This document shows, piece by piece, positions 774 through 11,214 of a DNA stretch of 64,000 nucleotides; the stretch's first letter is position 1; each line of letters begins with the position of its first letter. The stretch comes from Kutzneria buriramensis (lineage in GTDB: Bacteria; Actinomycetota; Actinomycetes; Mycobacteriales; Pseudonocardiaceae), in NCBI RefSeq assembly GCF_003387475.1, contig NZ_QUNO01000004.1, positions 248,001 to 312,000 of the forward strand. Direction: 5' to 3'. A program made the translations under genes and the position numbers. The notes below the pieces were generated by a model. That model was not told the DNA's origin, made no database searches, and worked only from the letters and a program-made list of their open reading frames with translations.

Positions 774-2006
774 CTACAGGGCCTCCCTCAGCACCGGGCA
801 GGACATGCAGCGCGGGCCGCCGCGGCCGGAGCCCAGCTCGGAGCCGCTGATCCGGAGCACCTCGATGCCGGCGTCCTCCAGCCGCGCATTGGTTTCCACA
901 TTTCGTTCGTACGCGACGACAACGCCCGGAGCGACGGCGAGCGTGTTGTTTCCGTCGTCCCACTGCTCGCGTTCCGCGGTCACCGCGTCCAGGCCGGTGT
1001 CGATCACGCGCAGCCGCTCGATGCCCATCGCGGTCGCGGCCGCGTCGAGGAACGGCGACGGGCCGTCGACGGTCACGCCGCCGGCGCCGTCGGGCCGCAG
1101 CGTGAAGGCGGACAGCGAGTCGCGGATCGCCGGGTACATCACCACGGCATCCCGGTCGACCATGGTGCACACGGTGTCCAGGTGCATGGTGGCGCGCTCC
1201 TGCGCGATCGGCACGGCGAGCACGGTGTGCGCGAGGCCGTCCAGGAACACCGAGCGGGCGAAGGACTCCGCGCCGGCGGGCGTGGTGCGCTCGCCGACAC
1301 CGATCGCCAGCACGCCCTGTGACAGCAGCAGGACGTCACCGCCCTCCAGCGGCGCCGAGTGCGCGCCGTAGGCGCGGGAGGTCTTGGCGAACCGCGGGTG
1401 GTACGCGTAGATCAGGTCGGTGATCGACGACTCGCGGCGGCGGGCCGGCATCACCAGCGACGACACGGCGACCCGGTCCGCGACCCAGGCCGAGGAGTCG
1501 CGGGTGAACAGCAGGTTGGGCAGCGGCGCGATGGCGAAGTCGTGCGGCTGGTGCATGTGCCGCACCAGCGACCCGCCCTCGGCGGCCGGCAGCTCCTCGA
1601 ACGTCATGCCGGCCATCAGCACCGTGGCCAGTTCGGACGGCACGAGCGTGGACAGGTGCGAGCGCAGCGCATCGGCCAGGTCGATGCCGAGCTGGCGCTC
1701 GTCGACGGCGGCGTAGATGCCGGCGGCTCGGGCGCGCTGGTCCTCCAGCGAGGTCCGCAGCAGGGTGGACAGCAGCAGCACCTCGACGCCCCGCGAGCGC
1801 AGCGTCTCGGCGAACGCGTCGTGCTCCTCCTGGGCCCGGCCGACCCAGGGGATGCCGTCGAACAGCAGCTGGTCGTTGTTGCGCGGGGTCAGCCGCTTCA
1901 GTTCCAGGCCGGGGCGGTGCAGCAGCACCGTGCGCAGCGGCCCGACCTCGCTGTCGACCCTCGGCGCGGGCGAGAAGTCCGTGGCAGAACTGATGTCTGA
2001 GGTCAC
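774..2006 (-). CDS. arcA: Arginine deiminase
   Basis: Hydrolyses L-arginine to citrulline and ammonia in the cytoplasm. About 410 residues, the normal family length. Family landmarks run in order: [14 protein letters not shown], a catalytic-His segment MHLDT, and the nucleophile Cys near the C-terminus in GGPRCMSCP. No ornithine carbamoyltransferase, carbamate kinase or arginine/ornithine antiporter gene lies nearby, so this is a stand-alone deiminase and not an arc fermentation operon. A GTG at 2024 extends the frame by six codons. I prefer the GTG at 2006 because TACCCT lies exactly 7 nt before it, the leaderless layout seen repeatedly in this window. Confidence 0.93.
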
Positions 2007-2013
2007 GGCCCCG

Positions 2014-2019
2014 AGGGTA
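2014..2019 (-). promoter_or_regulatory. -10 element of a leaderless arcA promoter
   Basis: TACCCT on the minus strand, followed by 7 nt and then the GTG at 2006. The identical hexamer and spacing occur before glf (44340-44345). No good -35 hexamer is visible. Inferred from position only. Confidence 0.5.
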
Positions 2020-2138
2020 ACCACGCGACAGTGGATTTGTCGCCCCTCAACCGGGTGTGACGGCGATTTCAGAAACAGAATGACGGTCCGAACAACGATC
2101 CGTTAAATAAATCGAGCGGTCACGCGTCGATCTGTTGT

Positions 2139-2957
2139 TCAGAGTCCGGGGATGACGCTGTGCAGCAGCGCGTACCCGACGAAGGACACGATGTCGAGGA
2201 TGGTGTGCGCGACCACCAGCGCCCACAGCCGGTTGAAGCGCTGCCAGACCCGGCCGAACACCAGCCCGAGCACGATGTTGCCGAGGAACCCGCCGAAGCC
2301 CTGGTAGAGGTGGTACGACCCGCGCAGCACGGCGGCGGTGACCAGCGAGGCGTTCTCGCCCCAGCCGAACCGGCGCAGCCGCGTGATCAGGTAGCCGACG
2401 ACCAGCGACTCCTCGGCCCAGGCGTTGCCGAAGGCGGACAGGATCAGCACCGGCACCCGCCACCAGGTGTCGCCCAGCGCCGACGGCACCACGTTCAGGT
2501 TGATGCCGATGGCCCTGGTCAGGAAGTAGAAGCCGAGCCCGGGAATGCCGATCAGGGCGGCCAGCCCGCAGCCGGCGAGCAGGTCCCTGCCCGGGCGGGT
2601 GCGGTCCAGCCCGACCAGCCGCGGCCCGATGCCCGCCCGCCACAGCAGGTACGCGCCGAGTGCGCCCCACGCCAGCAGTTGCAGCACGCCGGCCAGCTGC
2701 GCGAGCAGGTCGAGCAGGCTCACGGTGGCCTGCTGGACGTTGAGCGCCACGCTCTGCTGGTTCAACGGCTTCGGCTGGAGCAGGGCGTTGAGCAACGAGA
2801 TCAGGCTGCGCAGCCCGGACAGCCCCAGCGTCGCGCTGAAGACGATCAGCAGCTCCCAGGTGTAACCGCGCCGCTCTGCCGGATCCGTGATGGGATCGTC
2901 GATGACCCGCGCCGGCGCGATCCAGCCGCGCACGGTGCCTGATCCTTTTGGGCTCAT
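2139..2957 (-). CDS. CPBP-family intramembrane metalloprotease
   Basis: A 272-residue polytopic membrane protein with about six to eight hydrophobic segments. The C-terminal half carries the three CPBP (Abi/CAAX protease-like) motifs: an EES pair in AWAEESLVVGYL, a histidine motif RGSYHLYQG and a second His/Asp motif in AHTILDIVSFVG. The first motif is atypical: the usual EExxxR has Val in place of Arg, so activity may differ. Bacterial members process peptides or confer immunity, but the role here is unknown. It sits 18 bases downstream of the DUF2470 gene on the same strand and could be co-transcribed with it. Confidence 0.85.
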   Translation of the reverse strand: MSPKGSGTVRGWIAPARVIDDPITDPAERRGYTWELLIVFSATLGLSGLRSLISLLNALLQPKPLNQQSVALNVQQATVSLLDLLAQLAGVLQLLAWGALGAYLLWRAGIGPRLVGLDRTRPGRDLLAGCGLAALIGIPGLGFYFLTRAIGINLNVVPSALGDTWWRVPVLILSAFGNAWAEESLVVGYLITRLRRFGWGENASLVTAAVLRGSYHLYQGFGGFLGNIVLGLVFGRVWQRFNRLWALVVAHTILDIVSFVGYALLHSVIPGL

Positions 2958-2975
2958 GCGCGCGGACGCTACCGG

Positions 2976-3764
2976 TTACCCCTGCTGGACCTGCGTCAAG
3001 AACGGGCAGCCCATGAGGCGTCGCAGCTCGCCGGACAGCTCCTTGGCGTTGTGCACCGGACGTTCGAAGGCGATCCGGACGTCGTGGTCGCCCTCGACGG
3101 CCTCCACGCGCAGCCGCAGCCCCAGCCGGTCCAGCCCGAGCGGCCGGACGTGCCCGCCGCGCAGGTGCTCGGGCAGGTGCCGGCTGAGCAGCTCCACCAC
3201 GTCGCGGTGGGACAGCTCCAGGTGCCGCAGCCACTGGTCCTCGTCCCGGTGGAACGGGTCGGGCTCGGCCTCGCCGAACTCGTTGGGCCGCACCGAGCTG
3301 GTGCCCTCGGCGTCGGCGATGACCATCGAGGCGGGCGTCAACCGCAGCACGGTGGCGCCGTGGCCGGCGTCCAGCAGCCGCGGATCCGGCTTGGCCTCGA
3401 CCACCTCCAGCACCGCGGCGCGCGCCTCCTCGCCCTCCAGGGCCCGCAGCCAGCCGGTGATCCAGAGCAGCCCGCGCACCGGCTCCCGCAGCGGCACCGG
3501 CGCGGTGTCGGCGAGTTCGAGCATGCCGGTCAGCTCGCCGCGCGGGGCCTGACCGGCCAGCGCGACCAGCGGGTCGTTGTCGCGGAACAGCAGCGTGGCC
3601 ACGCCGTCGCCGTGCACGTGGTGCAGCATCGGCACCGTGCGCGAGGCCGACGCGGACGCCTCGTCGGCGCCGGGCAGCACGGCGGCCCGGCCGCCGCGTG
3701 CGGCGATCGTCCGGGCCCGCTCCGCCGCGCTGGGCGCCGGCGGCCGGTACGTGGCCTGGCTCAT
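2976..3764 (-). CDS. DUF2470-domain protein, probably iron-regulated
   Basis: 262 residues with no signal peptide or membrane segment. The N-terminal part resembles the flavin-reductase-like fold of HugZ/pyridoxamine-oxidase-type proteins. The C-terminal segment (about residues 175-260, around RDVVELLSRHLPEHL and FERPVHNAKELSGEL) is the DUF2470 domain. Relatives occur in haem or siderophore iron-utilisation loci. The start is firm: GGAGGTGAGCGG directly precedes the ATG. An iron-box-like operator lies 16 bases upstream. Haem handling is an inference from family context; no haem ligand can be assigned with certainty. Confidence 0.8.
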   Translation of the reverse strand: MSQATYRPPAPSAAERARTIAARGGRAAVLPGADEASASASRTVPMLHHVHGDGVATLLFRDNDPLVALAGQAPRGELTGMLELADTAPVPLREPVRGLLWITGWLRALEGEEARAAVLEVVEAKPDPRLLDAGHGATVLRLTPASMVIADAEGTSSVRPNEFGEAEPDPFHRDEDQWLRHLELSHRDVVELLSRHLPEHLRGGHVRPLGLDRLGLRLRVEAVEGDHDVRIAFERPVHNAKELSGELRRLMGCPFLTQVQQG

Positions 3765-3854: not shown

Positions 3855-5012
3855 TCACCGGCCCACCGCCATGCCGGCCTCCTCCGCCCAGGCTGCCACG
3901 TCGTCCCGCCGCAGCGCAGCGGCCAGCAGGTCGGGGAACCTGTCTGGAGTACAGGCAAACGCCGGAGCCCCCAGCTCCGAAAGGCGGGCGGCCAACTCGT
4001 GGTCGTACGCCGGCGCACCGCTGTCCGAAAGGGCGAGCAGCACCACGACGGTCACCCCGCTGGCCACCAGCTCGCGCACGCGGCGCAGCAACTCGCCGGC
4101 CACGCCGCCCTCGAACAGGTCGCTGATCAGCACCATCACCGAGTCGGCTGGCCGCTTGATCAACGACTGCCCGTAGGCCACCGCGCGGTTGATGTCGGTG
4201 CCGCCGCCCAACTGGGTGGAGAACAGGACGTCGACCGGGTCGTCCAGGGTCTCGGTCAGGTCCACGACCTCGGTGTCGAACACGACCAGCCGGGTGTCCA
4301 CGGCCTTGATCGACGCCAGCACCGCGCCGAAGACCGCGGAGTACACCACCGACTCGGCCATCGAGCCGGACTGGTCGACCAGCAGCACCACGTCCCGCAG
4401 CGAGGCGGTGCGGGACCGCCGCTGCCGCCCGATCAGGTCGTCGACGACCACGGTCCGCTGCGAGGGCTGGTAGTTCTTCAGATTGGCGCGGATCGTGGTG
4501 GCCCAGTCCACATCGGACAGTCGGGGCCGGTGGGTGCGCCGCGACCGGTCGATCGCGCCGTGCACGGCGTTCAGCAGCCGGTCGGCCAGCTTGCGCTCCA
4601 CGTCCTCGACGACCTTGCGCACCACCGCGCGGGCGGTCTCCCGAGTGCGGGCCGGGATCGCCCGGGACAGCGAGACGAGCGTGCCCACCAGCCGCACGTC
4701 CGGCTCGACGGTGGACAGCAGCTCCGGCTCCAGCAGCAGCTTGTTCAGGCCGAGGCGCTCGACGGCGTCGCGCTGCATGACCTGGACGACGGAGGTCGGG
4801 AAGTACGTGCGGACGTCGCCGAGCCAGCGGTGCAGCACCGGCGAGCTGCTGCCAAGGCCGGCGCTGCGCTTGCCGTCCGCGCCCTCGCCGCCGCCCCCGT
4901 AGAGCGCGGTCAACGCGCCGTCACGGCGCTCGTCGTCCTCGCCGAGGCCGCCCATCGCGCCCGCCGCGCCGCCGAGCAGCAGCCGCCAGCGCCGTTGCCG
5001 TTCGTCGGTCAT
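3855..5012 (-). CDS. VWA-domain protein of a MoxR/VWA operon
   Basis: 385 residues. The C-terminal half is a von Willebrand factor A domain with an intact MIDAS: DQSGSM near residue 217, a conserved Thr in GGGTDINRAV and a later Asp in LISDLFEGG. The N-terminal half is a charged helical region without a recognisable domain. The start overlaps the stop of the DUF5682 gene as ATGA (5009-5012), so translation is coupled. In MoxR/VWA systems the VWA protein is thought to be the metal-binding adaptor that passes substrates to the AAA ATPase. Length and order resemble E. coli YehP. This is the last gene of the operon. Confidence 0.88.
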   Translation of the reverse strand: MTDERQRRWRLLLGGAAGAMGGLGEDDERRDGALTALYGGGGEGADGKRSAGLGSSSPVLHRWLGDVRTYFPTSVVQVMQRDAVERLGLNKLLLEPELLSTVEPDVRLVGTLVSLSRAIPARTRETARAVVRKVVEDVERKLADRLLNAVHGAIDRSRRTHRPRLSDVDWATTIRANLKNYQPSQRTVVVDDLIGRQRRSRTASLRDVVLLVDQSGSMAESVVYSAVFGAVLASIKAVDTRLVVFDTEVVDLTETLDDPVDVLFSTQLGGGTDINRAVAYGQSLIKRPADSVMVLISDLFEGGVAGELLRRVRELVASGVTVVVLLALSDSGAPAYDHELAARLSELGAPAFACTPDRFPDLLAAALRRDDVAAWAEEAGMAVGR

Positions 5013-7192
5013 GACGTCGCTCCGATCAGCTCGCGGACGTGGGCGGCCAGCCGCTCCGCCCGGTCCTCGTCCCAGTCACCGGTGGGGGCGGCGACGGCCC
5101 GGCTGTCGCCGGCCATCACGCGGTCGCCGAGGGTGCGGCGCTCGGCACTGCTGAACTCGCCGACGGCCCGCCGCAGCAGCGGCAGCGCGTCGGCGAAGGC
5201 CTCCGGGGACAGACCGGTCAGCCAGTTGTCGATCAGTGCGAACAGCCGGTCGTCCGCCGCCAACAGGGCCGCCGAGCCACGGAGGAAGCCAGCGACGAAC
5301 GCCGTCGCGCCGGCGGTCGCGGACACCGCCCGGTGCAGCCGGGCCGCCACGGAATCGGTGTCCAGGTCGCCGGATTCCCACAGCAGCCGGGTCGCCCGTC
5401 CCGCCGGCAGGCCGTGCGCATCCGTCAGGGCGACCAGCCGGAGCAGGGCGTCCCGCCACACCGCGCGGTGGTCGTCGTCGGCGGCAAGGCCGGCGGCGTC
5501 CTGGGCGGCGTCGAGCGCGGCGACCAACTGGTCGGCGGTGTCGTCGTCCACGTTGCGGCAGGCCAACGGCAGCCCGACCGCGCCGCGCGCGAGCAGACCG
5601 TGCAGGGCGGAACGCAGCAGCTCGGGATCGGTGCCGCGGACCGAGCCGTAGCGAACGGTGCTGGCCAGCGACGGCAAGGCCTGCAACAACTCGGCGGCGT
5701 CGGTCGCGGCGGCGGCGCAGCGGTCGAGCGCCCGGCGCGCCGCGGCCACAGCGGTCGGTGACTCGCAGAAGACGGACTGCTCCAGCACCTCGCCGGCCTT
5801 CGCCACGCGGTCGGCGTCCTCGGCCCGTTGCCGAAGCACCTGCTCGGCGGCGGCCTCCACGGTGGTGCCGTGCCGCGCGGCGGCCGCGACGGCGACCGCC
5901 ATGCTCGGGTCCCACCGCACCCGCCACGCCTCGGCGAACGTGCCGGTGCTGTTGGTGTGGTCGGTCTCGCCCCACGGGACATCCAGCACCCGCAGCCGGC
6001 GCAGCAGTTTCGAGCGTTGCCGGTCCATGTCCTTACGGAGATCGAGCCGCATCTGCTTTTCGATCGCCGAGGCCGGCAGCCGCAGGCGTCGCTGGAGGCG
6101 CTCCAGGTCGGCGGCGAGCGGCGACCGCGGCACGCCCGCGCCGACCATGCCCAGTTCCTCGCCGACCACCAGCTTGTCGTGCACGAGCCGCAGCGGCGTG
6201 TCGTCACCGCCGCACAGCACGGCCAGCGTTGCCTCGCTGACCTCCGCCAGCCCCGGCGACGGCCGTCCACGCATGGCCGCGAGGGCGTCGGCCAGCCGGA
6301 CCGCCTCCACGGCGCTTGCCGTCGACGCCGGGAGGTCCTCCTCGCGGAGCACCGCGCAGGCGCGGGCGAACCACCGCGGCACGGCGTCGCCGGCGTCGGC
6401 CGTCTCCCACAGGTGCGCGTACCAGCCGGGGGAGGCGATGCCCGCCCCGTAGCCGGAGGCGTTGGCGAGCCGGCCGTGGCTCCACGGCACCCAGGTGCCG
6501 CTGATCTTCTTCTTGGGCAGGCCCTTCAGCAGCGCCGAATCGGCGGTGGCACTGGGCAGCTCCAGCAGCGCCGGCACGTGCCAGGCCCCGCAGACGACCA
6601 TGATCGGGCCCTCGACCTCCTTGAGCCCCTTGCGCAGCGCCTGCCGCATCGCCGCCTCACGACGCAGCGTGCGCTGGCCGACGTGGTCGGCGAACTCCTC
6701 GCGCAGCGCGGTCATCGCCTCCGCGACCGCCTGCGCCAGCCCGATCGGGTCGGCCGCCGCGTGCTGCTCGACGACGTCCTCCCACCAGCGTTCGGGATCG
6801 TCGAAGCCGGCGGCCTCGGCCAGCAGCCCCAGCGGGTCGATCGCCACCCGGTCCGGCTCGTCCTCCTCGCCGAGGGTGGCCGCCGCGGCCAGGTCGAAGA
6901 ACCGCAGCGGCACCTGGTGCTCGTCGGCCCAGCGCAGCGCCTGCCACTCCGGCGAGAAGCCGGCGAACGGCCAGAACGCGGCCGTCGCCGGATCGGTCTC
7001 GTCGTGCAGCAGCAGCGCCACCGGCGGGGTCAGGCCGCCGACGTGCGCGACCAGGCCGTCGGCCTCCGGCGGGCCCTCCACCAGCACCAGCGCCGGCTCG
7101 ATCGCCGCCAGCGCGGCGGCGACCATGCGGGCCGACCCCGGCCCGTGGTGGCGGATGCCGAGCAGCGTGACGCGCTCGGGGAGCTTGGGCAT
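5009..7192 (-). CDS. DUF5682 family protein
   Basis: 727 residues, cytosolic by sequence. The N-terminus carries LLGIRHHGPGSARMV and LVLVEGPPEADGL, the His- and Glu-containing signature of the EreA/ChaN/TraB-like superfamily to which DUF5682 has been related. The rest is a long helical region rich in Ala and Leu. The ATG at 7192 shares its A with the TGA of the MoxR gene (TGATG), and the 3' end overlaps the VWA start by 4 bases. Comparable to E. coli YehM. Its biochemical role is unknown; an esterase- or peptidase-like activity would be speculation from the fold. Confidence 0.82.
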   Translation of the reverse strand: MPKLPERVTLLGIRHHGPGSARMVAAALAAIEPALVLVEGPPEADGLVAHVGGLTPPVALLLHDETDPATAAFWPFAGFSPEWQALRWADEHQVPLRFFDLAAAATLGEEDEPDRVAIDPLGLLAEAAGFDDPERWWEDVVEQHAAADPIGLAQAVAEAMTALREEFADHVGQRTLRREAAMRQALRKGLKEVEGPIMVVCGAWHVPALLELPSATADSALLKGLPKKKISGTWVPWSHGRLANASGYGAGIASPGWYAHLWETADAGDAVPRWFARACAVLREEDLPASTASAVEAVRLADALAAMRGRPSPGLAEVSEATLAVLCGGDDTPLRLVHDKLVVGEELGMVGAGVPRSPLAADLERLQRRLRLPASAIEKQMRLDLRKDMDRQRSKLLRRLRVLDVPWGETDHTNSTGTFAEAWRVRWDPSMAVAVAAAARHGTTVEAAAEQVLRQRAEDADRVAKAGEVLEQSVFCESPTAVAAARRALDRCAAAATDAAELLQALPSLASTVRYGSVRGTDPELLRSALHGLLARGAVGLPLACRNVDDDTADQLVAALDAAQDAAGLAADDDHRAVWRDALLRLVALTDAHGLPAGRATRLLWESGDLDTDSVAARLHRAVSATAGATAFVAGFLRGSAALLAADDRLFALIDNWLTGLSPEAFADALPLLRRAVGEFSSAERRTLGDRVMAGDSRAVAAPTGDWDEDRAERLAAHVRELIGATS

Positions 7193-8289
7193 CAGGCGTA
7201 ACCGGCCAGGTCGTGGTCCTGGCAGGCGCGATACAGGTCGCGCCACTCGGGGCGCTCCTTCACCACGGCTTCCAGGTACTCCTGCCACGCGGCGGTGTCC
7301 GACACCCGGTCCTTGACCACCGCGCCGAGCAGGCCGGACGCCAGCTCGTCGGCGCCGAGCTTGCCGTCGCCGAAGTGCGCGGCCAGCGCCATGCCGCTGG
7401 TGATCACGGAGATCGCCTCGGCGGTGGACAGGCTGCCGCTGGGCTTCTTCAGCTGGGTACGTCCGTCCACGGTGGACCCGCCGCGCAGCTCGCGGAACAC
7501 CCGCACCACGCGGCGCACCTCCTCCAGCGCCGGCGGCTCGGCCGGCAGCTGGAGCGCCCGTCCGAGCTGGGCGGCCCGGCTCGAGACGATCTCCACCTCG
7601 GCGTCCTCGGACGCCGGCGGCGGCAGCACGACGGTGTTGAACCGGCGGGCCAGCGCCGAGGACATCTGGTTCACGCCGCGGTCCCGGTCGTTCGCGGTGG
7701 CGATGATCGAGAAGCCGGGCACGGCCTGCACCTGGAAGTTCAGCTCCGGCACCGGCAGCGCCTTCTCCGACAGCACGGTGATCAGCGAGTCCTGCACCTC
7801 GGACGGCATCCGGGTGAGCTCCTCGACCCGGGCGATCGCGCCGGTCCGCATCGCCCGCAGCACCGGGCTCGGCACCAGCGCCGCCTCGCTCGGCCCCTCG
7901 GCGATCAGGCGGGCGTAGTTCCAGCCGTAGCGGACGGACTCCTCGCTGGTGCCGGCCGTGCCCTGCACGACCAGCGTGGAGTCGCCGCTGACGGCCGCCG
8001 CGAGGTGCTCGGACAGCCAGGACTTCGCGGTGCCTGGGACACCGACCAGCAGCAGCGCTCGGTCGGTGGCCAGCGTCGCCACCGCCACCTCGACGATCCG
8101 CCGGTCGCCGACGTACTTCGGGGTGATCTTCGTGCCGTCGGACAGCTCGCCGCCCAGCACGTAGCGGACGACGGCCTGCGGCGAGAGCCTCCACATCGGC
8201 GGCTTGGGGCGGTCGTCGACCGCCGCGAGCGCTTCCAACTCGGCGGCGTACTGCTGCTCCGCAGACGGCCGCAGCACTGATTCGGTCAC
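7192..8289 (-). CDS. MoxR-type AAA ATPase
   Basis: 365 residues. AAA+ core: Walker A variant GVPGTAKS near residue 77, Walker B-like segment in IARVEELTRMP, sensor-1 ATANDRDRG and arginine-finger region SSALARRFN. The fold and insert pattern are of the MoxR branch of helix-2-insert AAA+ proteins, which usually work with VWA partners as ring chaperones. The GTG start overlaps the upstream stop as GTGA (8286-8289). Substituting GVPGTAKS for the canonical GPPGTGKT is typical of this YehL-like subgroup as I recall it. Sits centrally in the five-gene operon. Confidence 0.9.
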   Translation of the reverse strand: MTESVLRPSAEQQYAAELEALAAVDDRPKPPMWRLSPQAVVRYVLGGELSDGTKITPKYVGDRRIVEVAVATLATDRALLLVGVPGTAKSWLSEHLAAAVSGDSTLVVQGTAGTSEESVRYGWNYARLIAEGPSEAALVPSPVLRAMRTGAIARVEELTRMPSEVQDSLITVLSEKALPVPELNFQVQAVPGFSIIATANDRDRGVNQMSSALARRFNTVVLPPPASEDAEVEIVSSRAAQLGRALQLPAEPPALEEVRRVVRVFRELRGGSTVDGRTQLKKPSGSLSTAEAISVITSGMALAAHFGDGKLGADELASGLLGAVVKDRVSDTAAWQEYLEAVVKERPEWRDLYRACQDHDLAGYA

Positions 8290-9659
8290 TGATCGCCCCT
8301 TCGATCGAACGCGTCCCTCAGCTGGACGCGCAGGTGCAGCACGGCTTGTTCGTTGGTGTGTTCCGGCCAGCGCTCGGCGATCCGCGGCCACTGCTCGGTC
8401 AGCACGCCGACATCGCCCCTGGTCAGCAGCACGGGCGGCGGCCGGCCGGTCCGCCAGCCGGGCGTCACCGCGACGACGAAGCGGTTGAGCAGTGCCTCGG
8501 TGGTCGGCGCCGACCACGGCCCCGGCAGCTGCGAGCAGCCGTGGTCGAGCAGGTCGTACTTCCAGTCGTGGGACACCGCGACCAGCACCTCGGACGCCGA
8601 TCGCGCCGGCAGCGAGTCGATCGCGTCCAGCAGCGCCATGCCGGTCAGCACCTCGGACGCCGCCAGCGCCCACGGCACCGGGTCGGCGGCCAGCGGCAGC
8701 GCGTCGGCGATGCCCTGGAGCAGCGGCTTCGCCCACGGGCTCGCCACCACCTGGTCCAGCTCCCAGAACTCCGGCGGCACCGACGCGGCCGCCGCCCGCA
8801 ACCGGCCGGCGATGCCTGTCTCGGCGTTGCCGTCGTGCAACAGGTCCCGCTGCTCCGCGGCGTCCGGCTCCAGCTCGAACCGGCCGTCCGGGATCACGTC
8901 GGCGTCGCGCAGGCCGTCCCAGAGCCGCCGCTCCGCCCGTTGCGCCAGCGCCGTGCCGGGCAGCTTGCGCAGCAGCCGCAGCGCCAGGTCGTGCACGCCG
9001 GCCGCCCGGTCGTCCAGCGCGGCCTCCAGGATCGGCTCGTCCTCGATGGACAGGCCTACCTCCAGCGCGTTGACCAGCAGCTGCCGGTCGGCGGCACGGC
9101 GCTCCTCCGGGAACCGCTCGCCGATCAGGGCTCGCACCGCCGCCGGGTCCTGCCGCCGCCACAGCCGTAGGGCCGTCAGGCGCTTGCCCGCCGGCGCGTC
9201 CGGGTCGTACGGCTCCTGGTCGTTGACGCCGATCGCCCACGACCAGTCCTTGCTCAGCTGCGCCAGCCACTCGCCGCGCGCACCCAGCACGAGCCGGATC
9301 GCCGGGCGCAGCGTCGGCCGCGCCCCGCCCAGCGCCAGCAGCTGCGGCAACTGCGCGTACGCCGCGACCACGTGAGCCCGGCTGGCCGCCGCGCACCACT
9401 CCGTCAGCAACGCCTCGTCGTCCCAGCCGAGGACCTGCGCCAGCACGTTGCGTGCCGACTCGCCGGCCAGCTGCGCATTCTCCGGCGGCGCAAGGGGAAT
9501 CGGCACCAGGCCGTCCGGCGTCATCGGCAGCCGCGCCCCGAACCGGGCCAACCCCAGCGACGCGCAGTCGGCCAGCAGCGTGTCCCGCTCGACGTTGGCG
9601 CGCCGGGTGCCGACCAGCAGTTGCTGCACGGTGTCCTGCCACCGTTGCTCCATGTTCAC
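8286..9659 (-). CDS. DUF5691-like protein of the MoxR/VWA operon
   Basis: 457 residues, Ala/Leu/Arg-rich and probably an all-helical repeat protein; no membrane segment or catalytic motif is evident. Starts with V-N-M-E-Q-R-W. The GTG at 9659 overlaps the SWIM gene's TGA by 4 bases, matching the coupling elsewhere in this operon; an ATG two codons later is the alternative. I recall DUF5691 as the family that accompanies SWIM/MoxR/DUF5682/VWA sets in actinobacteria, but the name rests on context more than on a motif. Function unknown; a scaffold or adaptor is plausible. Confidence 0.65.
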   Translation of the reverse strand: MNMEQRWQDTVQQLLVGTRRANVERDTLLADCASLGLARFGARLPMTPDGLVPIPLAPPENAQLAGESARNVLAQVLGWDDEALLTEWCAAASRAHVVAAYAQLPQLLALGGARPTLRPAIRLVLGARGEWLAQLSKDWSWAIGVNDQEPYDPDAPAGKRLTALRLWRRQDPAAVRALIGERFPEERRAADRQLLVNALEVGLSIEDEPILEAALDDRAAGVHDLALRLLRKLPGTALAQRAERRLWDGLRDADVIPDGRFELEPDAAEQRDLLHDGNAETGIAGRLRAAAASVPPEFWELDQVVASPWAKPLLQGIADALPLAADPVPWALAASEVLTGMALLDAIDSLPARSASEVLVAVSHDWKYDLLDHGCSQLPGPWSAPTTEALLNRFVVAVTPGWRTGRPPPVLLTRGDVGVLTEQWPRIAERWPEHTNEQAVLHLRVQLRDAFDRRGDQ

Positions 9660-10894
9660 GAGACCACCTCCGGGAACGCCCCCGGCTCCGCGATCGCGCA
9701 CAGTTGCAGCGAATTCCCGTCCCACAGCCCCATCGCGTCGAACGGGTCGCCGCCGGTGCGGGCCAACGCCTGCGCCAGCGACGCGCCCGCCCGCACCGGC
9801 AGGGCTCGCTCGGCGGCGTCGATCAGGTACAGCGACCGGTCGTCCCGCGCCGGCCTCGTCCCCTTGCAGCACAACGGAACCAGTCGCAGCCACGGGTCGT
9901 TGACCAGCAGTGACTCCGCCGCCGCCAGCGCCTGATCCCAGGTGTCGGGCAACGGGATCGGCCCCGCCGGCCCCGACCGCGTCACCTCGCCGACCGCCAC
10001 CCGCCGCGGCAAACCGCCCGGGTAGGGGTGCATCACCGCCGCCAATTCCGCCCCGGGAGTCATTGCCGGCACGGGAATCGCTCCGCCGGCCGCGTGCCGC
10101 GCCGTGTACACCCACTGTTTGCGGGACCGCCCCCATGCCCACTGCCGGACGGTGCGGACCTTGCCGTCGTCACTGTCCAGCCGCAGCAGCACCACCCAGT
10201 CGTCCGCCCAGCTCTCGCCGGCCCGCACCTCCTGCTCGGTGGTGGTGAATCCCAGCCGAACCCTTGCCGCGTCGGAGAAATCCGTTCGGGTCAGCAGGTA
10301 GAGCCGTCCGATGTGGTCGGTCGCCTCCTCGTACCAGCGCGGTCGGTTCGCCCCCACCACCGACCGCAGCTCACCGATCGCCGACGCGATGCCGGGCGCC
10401 TGCGCGTCCACCATCCGCGCCATGATTCCCTGCCACCACAAAGGTTCCCGTGACGGCAGGGTGGCCAGGCCGCCGGCCGACAGGTCCGTCAGCCAGTCCG
10501 TGAGGCCCGCGATGCCCGCCCGCACCGACTCCTCGCGGCGCTTGCCCGGCTGCGCCGGCTTGCGCTCGGTGGTTGCGCGCGCGTGGCGGGCGTGCAGCCA
10601 GCTGCCGACCCAGTCCGGCTGGGGCTTCTCCTGAGTGGAACCGTTGGCGTGCAACAGTTGCAGCGCCACCGCGTGCTTGCACGGGAACTTCCGGGACGGG
10701 CAGGAGCACTTCGTCGCCCGGTCGCTGAGGTCGACGCAGACCTGGTACGGGCTCTTGCCGCTGCCCTGGCACAGCCCCCACAGCGCGGCGTCGTCATGGC
10801 CGAGTTCGGGCCATTTCGCCGGCACCGCCAGCTTGCTGGCCCCGGTCGCCACCTGGCGGTCCGGCGCCTGCGCCAGCACTGCTTCCACGTCCAT
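9656..10894 (-). CDS. SWIM zinc-finger protein, first gene of the MoxR/VWA operon
   Basis: 412 residues. A SWIM zinc-binding motif CxCxnCxH appears near residues 64-75 (CSCPSRKFPCKH). SWIM domains bind DNA or protein. The remainder is an unassigned mixed region with two short hydrophobic patches but no clear membrane segment. It is comparable in type to E. coli YehQ. The ATG has no ribosome site, but TATGGT lies 6 nt upstream, suggesting a leaderless operon mRNA starting at this gene. The operon then runs DUF5691, MoxR, DUF5682, VWA with overlaps of 1-4 bases at every junction. Confidence 0.87.
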   Translation of the reverse strand: MDVEAVLAQAPDRQVATGASKLAVPAKWPELGHDDAALWGLCQGSGKSPYQVCVDLSDRATKCSCPSRKFPCKHAVALQLLHANGSTQEKPQPDWVGSWLHARHARATTERKPAQPGKRREESVRAGIAGLTDWLTDLSAGGLATLPSREPLWWQGIMARMVDAQAPGIASAIGELRSVVGANRPRWYEEATDHIGRLYLLTRTDFSDAARVRLGFTTTEQEVRAGESWADDWVVLLRLDSDDGKVRTVRQWAWGRSRKQWVYTARHAAGGAIPVPAMTPGAELAAVMHPYPGGLPRRVAVGEVTRSGPAGPIPLPDTWDQALAAAESLLVNDPWLRLVPLCCKGTRPARDDRSLYLIDAAERALPVRAGASLAQALARTGGDPFDAMGLWDGNSLQLCAIAEPGAFPEVVS

Positions 10895-10930: not shown

Positions 10931-10984
10931 TGGCGCCGCCTTCGGCAGCGCGGCTCGGCCCCTTCGGGGCCGGTGCCTTCCCTA

Positions 10985-11053
10985 GCCGGATTTCGATCGC
11001 CCGCGTTGGCTCCTGCCGTGGTCAGGTCGGGTGGCGGGCGATCGAAATCCGGC
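10985..11053. repeat. Perfect 20-bp inverted repeat between divergent operons
   Basis: The left arm (10985-11004) begins GCCGGATTTCGATCG; the right arm (11034-11053) is its exact 20/20 reverse complement, with a 29-base spacer. It lies in the 320-base gap between the minus-strand MoxR/VWA operon (start 10894) and the plus-strand membrane-protein operon (start 11215). A smaller CGGCCCC/GGGGCCG hairpin lies at 10956-10972. The rest of the gap shows no gene. No poly-T follows, and both flanking genes point outward, so a terminator is unlikely; an operator or a small mobile-element remnant are alternatives. Confidence 0.75.
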
Positions 11054-11214
11054 GACGGTCCAGGCACCGGCGGGGCCTCGCCCTTTCCGGCGCTGGGGGG
11101 TAGTTGCCGCGACACCTGGCGCTCCGCCATTCGCGCAGGTCACAGTCGGATGAAGCCCGTTTGCCCGATGAGTACCGCGCTGGTAGGAATCAGCCGTCAT
11201 CCGAGGGGGGATTG

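Follow-up and report, generated by a model that had tools for sequence, protein, structure and literature searches.

The five genes at positions 3855–10894 of the window, the 64,000-nucleotide stretch of the Kutzneria buriramensis genome analysed here (contig NZ_QUNO01000004.1, positions 248,001 to 312,000), form a genuine operon, far beyond chance, because their order is kept across phyla and their overlapping junctions recur. We lean towards the interpretation that this operon encodes an ATP-driven MoxR–VWA remodelling machine of the YehL branch, equipped with a dedicated hydrolase subunit and acting in housekeeping or topology homeostasis. Family knowledge and conserved residues underlie the assignment of the MoxR protein as the likely motor and of the VWA protein as the likely adaptor; the hydrolase role is predicted, as are the assembly and the substrate of the machine. 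The proposed machine is old, widely conserved and little studied.

The operon is encoded entirely on the minus strand and opens with a SWIM zinc-finger gene (412 aa, ATG start, 10894–9656), which is followed by genes for a DUF5691 protein (457 aa, GTG start, 9659–8286), a MoxR AAA+ ATPase of the YehL subfamily (365 aa, GTG start, 8289–7192), a DUF5682 protein (727 aa, ATG start, 7192–5009) and a CoxE-like VWA protein (385 aa, ATG start, 5012–3855). Every junction overlaps, by 4, 4, 1 and 4 nt in turn, with GTGA between SWIM and DUF5691 (9656..9659), GTGA between DUF5691 and MoxR (8286..8289), TGATG between MoxR and DUF5682 (7192..7194) and ATGA between DUF5682 and VWA (5009..5012). These coordinates agree exactly with the initial annotation, and its domain calls were borne out by profile search, in which Pfam returned SWIM (E-value 5.8e-6), DUF5691 (6.1e-59), AAA_5 (6.2e-37), DUF5682 (1.3e-230) and VWA_CoxE (7.7e-53). 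The overlapping genes are probably translationally coupled. A GGAGG element lies seven bases 5' of the DUF5691 GTG start, and starting DUF5691 at the alternative ATG at 9653 would replace the overlap by a 2-nt gap after the SWIM gene. Upstream of the SWIM gene, a 25-nt inverted repeat with CCGGATTTCGATCGCCCGC arms occupies window positions 10980–11058 (92% complementary, 29-nt spacer); the repeat arm has one further single copy elsewhere in the genome. Downstream of the operon, positions 774–3764 carry arginine deiminase and DUF2470 genes that are common to Kutzneria and its relatives.

The arrangement was compared across 103 loci with DUF5682, a set made up of a genome-collection scan, regions from the window's order, the window itself, the second copy in the same genome and E. 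coli. The order SWIM–DUF5691–MoxR–DUF5682–VWA is found in 58 of the 103 loci, which include Actinomycetota, Bacteroidota, Cyanobacteriota, Pseudomonadota, Planctomycetota and Verrucomicrobiota. A further 15 loci, all of the Streptomyces type, have SWIM and DUF5691 in divergent orientation, and several of the remaining loci are interrupted by contig ends. Overlaps recur at all four junctions: DUF5682/VWA (70 of 91 loci, 51 of them by 4 nt), MoxR/DUF5682 (65/98), DUF5691/MoxR (45/68, with 43 overlapping by 4 nt) and SWIM/DUF5691 (37/64). Among 396 genomes drawn from the phylum, DUF5682 occurs in 24, and all 21 genomes with a clear DUF5691 also have DUF5682. The proposal that the genes constitute one coupled module is thus upheld, with gene order kept across phyla and overlaps recurrent; the five genes cluster rather than being scattered, and both the DUF5691 and DUF5682 frames are conserved across genomes. 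As far as sequence comparison can tell, the operon combines deep conservation with largely vertical inheritance. Separately, six Lentzea loci (L035–L037 and L039–L041) have the VWA gene displaced to a site upstream of the remaining four and in inverted orientation.

Four locus types were distinguished. Type A is the five-gene form of the window. Type B has the order MoxR–DUF5682–VWA–SWIM with a DUF4132 gene upstream and includes E. coli yehI...yehLMPQ; in type C (L017, L020 and L021), DUF5682 is fused to a C-terminal VWA domain; and the more distant type D occurs at L133. A second system in the Kutzneria genome (L004, G000:C18:256000-275000), with DUF4132, MoxR, DUF5682, VWA and SWIM genes consecutive, is of type B. 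At L126, an order-level type C locus, a 1648-aa open reading frame that lacks a Pfam match lies upstream of MoxR. DUF4132 sits before MoxR in YehL-type loci, and in some Bacteroidota (L054, L069 and L088) a DUF4132 gene comes after VWA in the five-gene operon, the L054 copy having HEAT repeats. We do not claim a replacement between DUF4132 and DUF5691, as hhalign gave no convincing homology between them (0.8%).

Sequence comparisons place the window MoxR in the YehL subfamily, apart from RavA and the MRP-type MoxR proteins. YehL is one of seven MoxR subfamilies, and we take the subfamily name from PMC3893208. BLAST gives the window protein 43% identity with E. coli YehL across 356 aa (E 5e-80), as compared with an E-value of 0.68 for RavA. 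In a tree with RavA and the other MoxR proteins of the genome, the proteins of types A–D and YehL form one clade with support of 100/99, in support of the suggested kinship with E. coli yehL/M/P/Q. The neighbouring DUF5682 and VWA genes that mark this subfamily are likewise present in the window. Conserved residues among the MoxR homologues comprise the Walker A motif GxPGTAK[ST], the acidic pair E156/E157, the sensor N200 and R215/R216. The Walker A motif had been described as a variant, a label that does not hold up: 99 of 100 homologues carry Ala in place of Gly, which makes it the usual form, and E. coli RavA has the same Ala in GPPGIAKS. The MIDAS of the VWA protein is complete, with DxSxS in 98/98, T272 in 97/98 and D298 in 98/98 homologues. 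With the MIDAS, Walker and zinc-ligand residues all intact, the residues expected of a MoxR–VWA machine are in place.

The E. coli yehLMPQ locus has homologous MoxR (43%) and DUF5682 (25%, with the same motifs) genes, an adjacent VWA gene on the same strand and a SWIM protein in the operon. By comparison, it has no DUF5691, its SWIM gene comes last, and the DUF4132 gene yehI and the WGR gene yehF lie upstream. The window operon departs from the type B gene set because SWIM comes first, DUF5691 is present and the SWIM body is unlike YehQ; on gene content and phylogeny it is classed as a distinct type within the YehL branch, with yehLMPQ as its sister type. The zinc finger of the SWIM protein (CxC...CxH, residues 63–74) is invariant, with C63, C65, C72 and H74 present in 78 of 78 ungapped homologues, and the protein body of about 300 aa has no Pfam family. 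The type A body shows no detectable homology to YehQ (hhalign probability 14%), so that the two proteins have little in common beyond the finger.

The DUF5682 protein carries the argument for a hydrolase subunit. Its AlphaFold model is of high confidence (pLDDT 92.0, pTM 0.88; the structure-prediction alignment left out the E. coli YehM row) and comprises an N-terminal α/β domain (about residues 3–217) and generic helical repeats at residues 424–696. The α/β domain aligns with ChaN (2g5g) with a Z-score of 9.5 and an rmsd of 4.5 over 154 residues in VIA-align, and also with 8b6h_DQ, a subunit of Tetrahymena complex IV (Z 10.3). Since Foldseek by itself returned no significant fold for this model (E > 0.04), the fold assignment leans on VIA-align as a second-look aligner, through which alone ChaN was matched, and on the conserved motifs. 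The match is therefore of moderate strength, and it agrees with the EreA/ChaN-like fold proposed from the sequence; Pfam gave no sequence-level match of DUF5682 to the TIKI, EreA or ChaN families. Types A, B and C all keep GxRHH, E(G)P, REM and G[AG][WF]H, which correspond to G12xxH15, E39, R178 and G202xxH205 in the window protein. The His/Glu/basic pattern of TIKI-family enzymes and the roles of its residues have been described (PMC6254334), and DUF5682 fits this pattern, having a pair of His motifs together with a Glu and a basic residue. Of the 2His/2Glu set in VvRRSP, the first Glu is missing from GxRHH, which has Arg in its place. Because the ChaN match is accompanied by GxxH, Glu, Arg and GxxH motifs kept throughout, DUF5682 is probably a hydrolase of the TIKI/EreA/ChaN type. 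It shares with these enzymes the α/β domain, the two GxxH motifs and the conserved Glu and Arg, and differs from them in its long C-terminal helical-repeat half.

The DUF5691 protein appears to be an α-solenoid of HEAT-like type. Its AlphaFold model (pLDDT 83.9) is all-helical with 26 helices, and profile matches ranging from 6e-5 to 7e-3 include a designed helical-repeat chain (6e-5) and an alphaRep (3e-3). The best VIA-align hit, the CpcE/CpcF phycocyanin lyase complex, has a Z-score of 8.6, which is within the background for helical repeats, and Foldseek alone gave no significant fold for this model. A role as scaffold or substrate-binding subunit is probable.

The best-resolved relative is NorQD, in which a finger of the VWA protein enters the MoxR pore; contact with the target is attributed to the MIDAS, and specificity is proposed to come from an N-terminal domain (PMC13036017, PMC9976466). 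The window operon shares the MoxR ring and a MIDAS-bearing VWA partner with NorQ/NorD, CbbQ/O and RavA/ViaA. These systems belong to another MoxR clade, RavA being the member compared, and have no hydrolase, solenoid or SWIM subunit. By analogy with NorQ/NorD, the VWA domain would dock in the pore of the MoxR hexamer and be twisted by ATP hydrolysis, serving as adaptor and transmission between the MoxR ring and DUF5682 or the substrate. DUF5682, bound to VWA, may then be the working part that hydrolyses or remodels the substrate, which the DUF5691 solenoid and the SWIM protein (a zinc protein that could bind protein or nucleic acid) would select. Binding of DUF5682 to VWA is suggested by type C, in which the two are one protein. 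In these fusions DUF5682 occupies the position of the proposed specificity domain of NorD, N-terminal to VWA, and for this reason we favour the model of motor, transmission and working hydrolase. If the hydrolase assignment is true, a MoxR–VWA motor would be coupled to a TIKI-fold enzyme, for which we found no earlier description.

Ranking second is a dedicated maturation chaperone, in which DUF5682 is a client that MoxR and VWA supply with metal or activate and that then works alone, with DUF5691 and SWIM assisting. The VWA protein is CoxE-like, NorQD is a system that puts metal into its target (PMC13036017), heme binding is possible for ChaN-fold proteins according to the title of entry 2g5g, and DUF5682 has invariant motifs like those of an enzyme. 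The single DUF5682–VWA polypeptide of type C is nevertheless more in line with a permanent subunit than with a client, and DUF5691 and SWIM would be left with no obvious role, so we regard this scheme as possible and somewhat unlikely. In the literature searched, neither a direct functional study of the YehL branch nor biochemistry on five-gene or Yeh members was found, SCO4804 of Streptomyces coelicolor excepted, and a text search of 5.39 million papers for the names DUF5682 and DUF5691 gave no match.

The connection to SCO4804 was drawn from genome context. Synteny and the locus numbers that we take pcrA and sucC to have pointed to SCO4803–SCO4805 as operon candidates, and a presumably close relative of S. 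coelicolor, G766 (8.6 Mb), was chosen by what we assume to be the phiC31 attB core, present in 1 of 393 genomes. The G766 DUF5682 gene has just one ATG/GTG start after the MoxR stop and before its GVRHH motif, and this start gives a protein of 815 aa and 86.24 kDa. The gap between MoxR and DUF5682 is 102 nt in G766, as compared with the published 103 for sco4804, and VWA and then sucCD follow downstream. The downstream gap can be read as 158 or –4 and does not exactly match the 171-bp gap published for sco4804. Given the synteny, the 815-aa length and the upstream gap, SCO4804 is very likely DUF5682, SCO4803 MoxR and SCO4805 VWA. The Streptomyces locus has the same five families as the window (the G766 DUF5682 and MoxR being 47% and 70% identical to those of the window) and is placed between pcrA and sucCD; unlike in the window, its SWIM and DUF5691 genes are divergently transcribed.

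SCO4804 is described as a hypothetical protein of 815 aa and 86.04 kDa with homologues in Alphaproteobacteria, Bacteroidetes and Cyanobacteria, and SCO4803–SCO4805 are annotated as hypothetical proteins with their family unrecognised (PMC8120823). The initial annotation held the function of the operon to be undescribed, which is nearly true, except that sco4804 was studied in 2021, though not as a DUF5682 gene (PMC8120823). TopA depletion induces sco4804 and its neighbours eightfold, a Tn5 insertion in sco4804 lowers topA promoter activity and the TopA level, and sco4804 overexpression raises topA promoter activity with a transient increase of topA and gyrB transcripts; this topA evidence comes from one transposon mutant, polar on sco4805, and from overexpression (PMC8120823). 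6His-SCO4804 bound DNA at 1 μM (PMC8120823). Such observations could suggest that DUF5682 regulates transcription by binding DNA, a role put forward for SCO4804, with the ATPase genes modulating it. The DNA binding, however, lacked specificity and was abolished by poly(dIdC), and no binding of SCO4804 to TopA was observed, so the authors conclude that the effect on topA is indirect (PMC8120823). In addition, the predicted fold is a ChaN/TIKI domain with helical repeats and enzyme-like invariant residues, and we consider a regulator highly improbable.

Returning to the remodelling machine with a hydrolase subunit, its role may lie in chromosomal housekeeping or in the homeostasis of stress. The Streptomyces genes sco4803–sco4805, which are probable orthologues, respond to excess negative supercoiling, and sco4804 indirectly raises the transcription of topA and, transiently, gyrB. 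On account of this response and of the effect on topA and gyrB, the substrate could plausibly be a protein that holds topoisomerase expression down or one that acts on over-supercoiled DNA. The evidence for the supercoiling link is indirect, comes from S. coelicolor only and would extend to the window operon by orthology. A bolder version, in which the branch is a general bacterial AAA+-powered TIKI-fold protease that responds when negative supercoiling is excessive and resets topoisomerase levels through cleavage or remodelling of a repressor, in E. coli yehLMPQ likewise, strikes us as unlikely. Despite being near-core in both E. coli and Streptomyces, the YehL branch is little studied. The tie to sco4804 would provide the family with its first phenotype, namely topoisomerase expression and supercoiling-dependent induction, together with a predicted active site as a target for mutagenesis and two hosts that are tractable.

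The initial annotation had favoured a phage-response or conflict system, in which SWIM would sense, MoxR–VWA would set a threshold and DUF5682 would kill or degrade. Other MoxR–vWA ternary systems, likewise composed of MoxR, vWA and further components, are predicted conflict systems (PMC7159879). By comparison, the five genes studied here are conserved rather than diversifying and are near-core in some taxa. Pfam found no VMAP, β-propeller or variable effector in the five proteins, the DUF5682 motif being constant, and bpMoxR scored 25.6 bits in the five-protein search, under the cut-off of 27. Kaur 2020 and a 2026 BREX paper do not mention YehL, SWIM, EreA or TIKI. DUF5691 is carried by 142 of 150 Streptomyces species, and yehLMPQ, counted as present at a coverage of at least 80%, by 5162 of 5426 E. 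coli genomes, in which it is nearly always chromosomal. At the order level alone the distribution is patchy, as would suit a defence system: DUF5682 is present in just 37 of 150 genomes of the window's order, so its role is dispensable in many of them. The chromosomal context is conserved in Streptomyces, where the loci lie between pcrA and sucCD, and the window copy adjoins its DUF2470 and arginine-deiminase genes. A MoxR+DUF5682 tree follows the phyla, with 8 label changes as compared with 23.2 after shuffling and with Actinomycetota and Bacteroidota each staying on a single side of a branch.

A survey of flanking genes, which had been proposed as a check for defence islands, gave no clear defence-gene signal. 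The 113 flank proteins from 20 low-GC loci belong mostly to housekeeping Pfam families (SUF, YceI, ABC, SDR and similar), and PADLOC gave a few restriction–modification or Cas12f-like matches among them, mostly single or generic (raw counts with no control set). The five operon proteins themselves gave nothing in PADLOC beyond the SWIM finger, and no DUF5682 relative was found among IMG/VR viral contigs. Some copies are on large plasmids, which would be in keeping with a defence role. Taken with the near-core presence in Streptomyces and E. coli, the fixed housekeeping contexts and the phylum-wise tree, the evidence indicates that the operon is probably not a defence system and that its distribution looks like that of a housekeeping or stress function; a phage-defence role is improbable.

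Three individual records concern mobile or viral sequences. Plasmid pOB3b3 of Methylosinus trichosporium OB3b (L171) carries SWIM–DUF5691–MoxR–DUF5682 amid insertion sequences, with no annotated VWA gene after them in the PLSDB gene tables, which are incomplete. An unverified 14-kb faecal record labelled 'Bacteriophage sp.' (MT835988.1, L169) encodes a nearly full-length DUF5682 with 27% identity and is possibly a mislabelled bacterial contig. On the Hymenobacter radiodurans plasmid NZ_CP037921.1, DUF5682 is annotated as three pieces and is perhaps a decaying copy.
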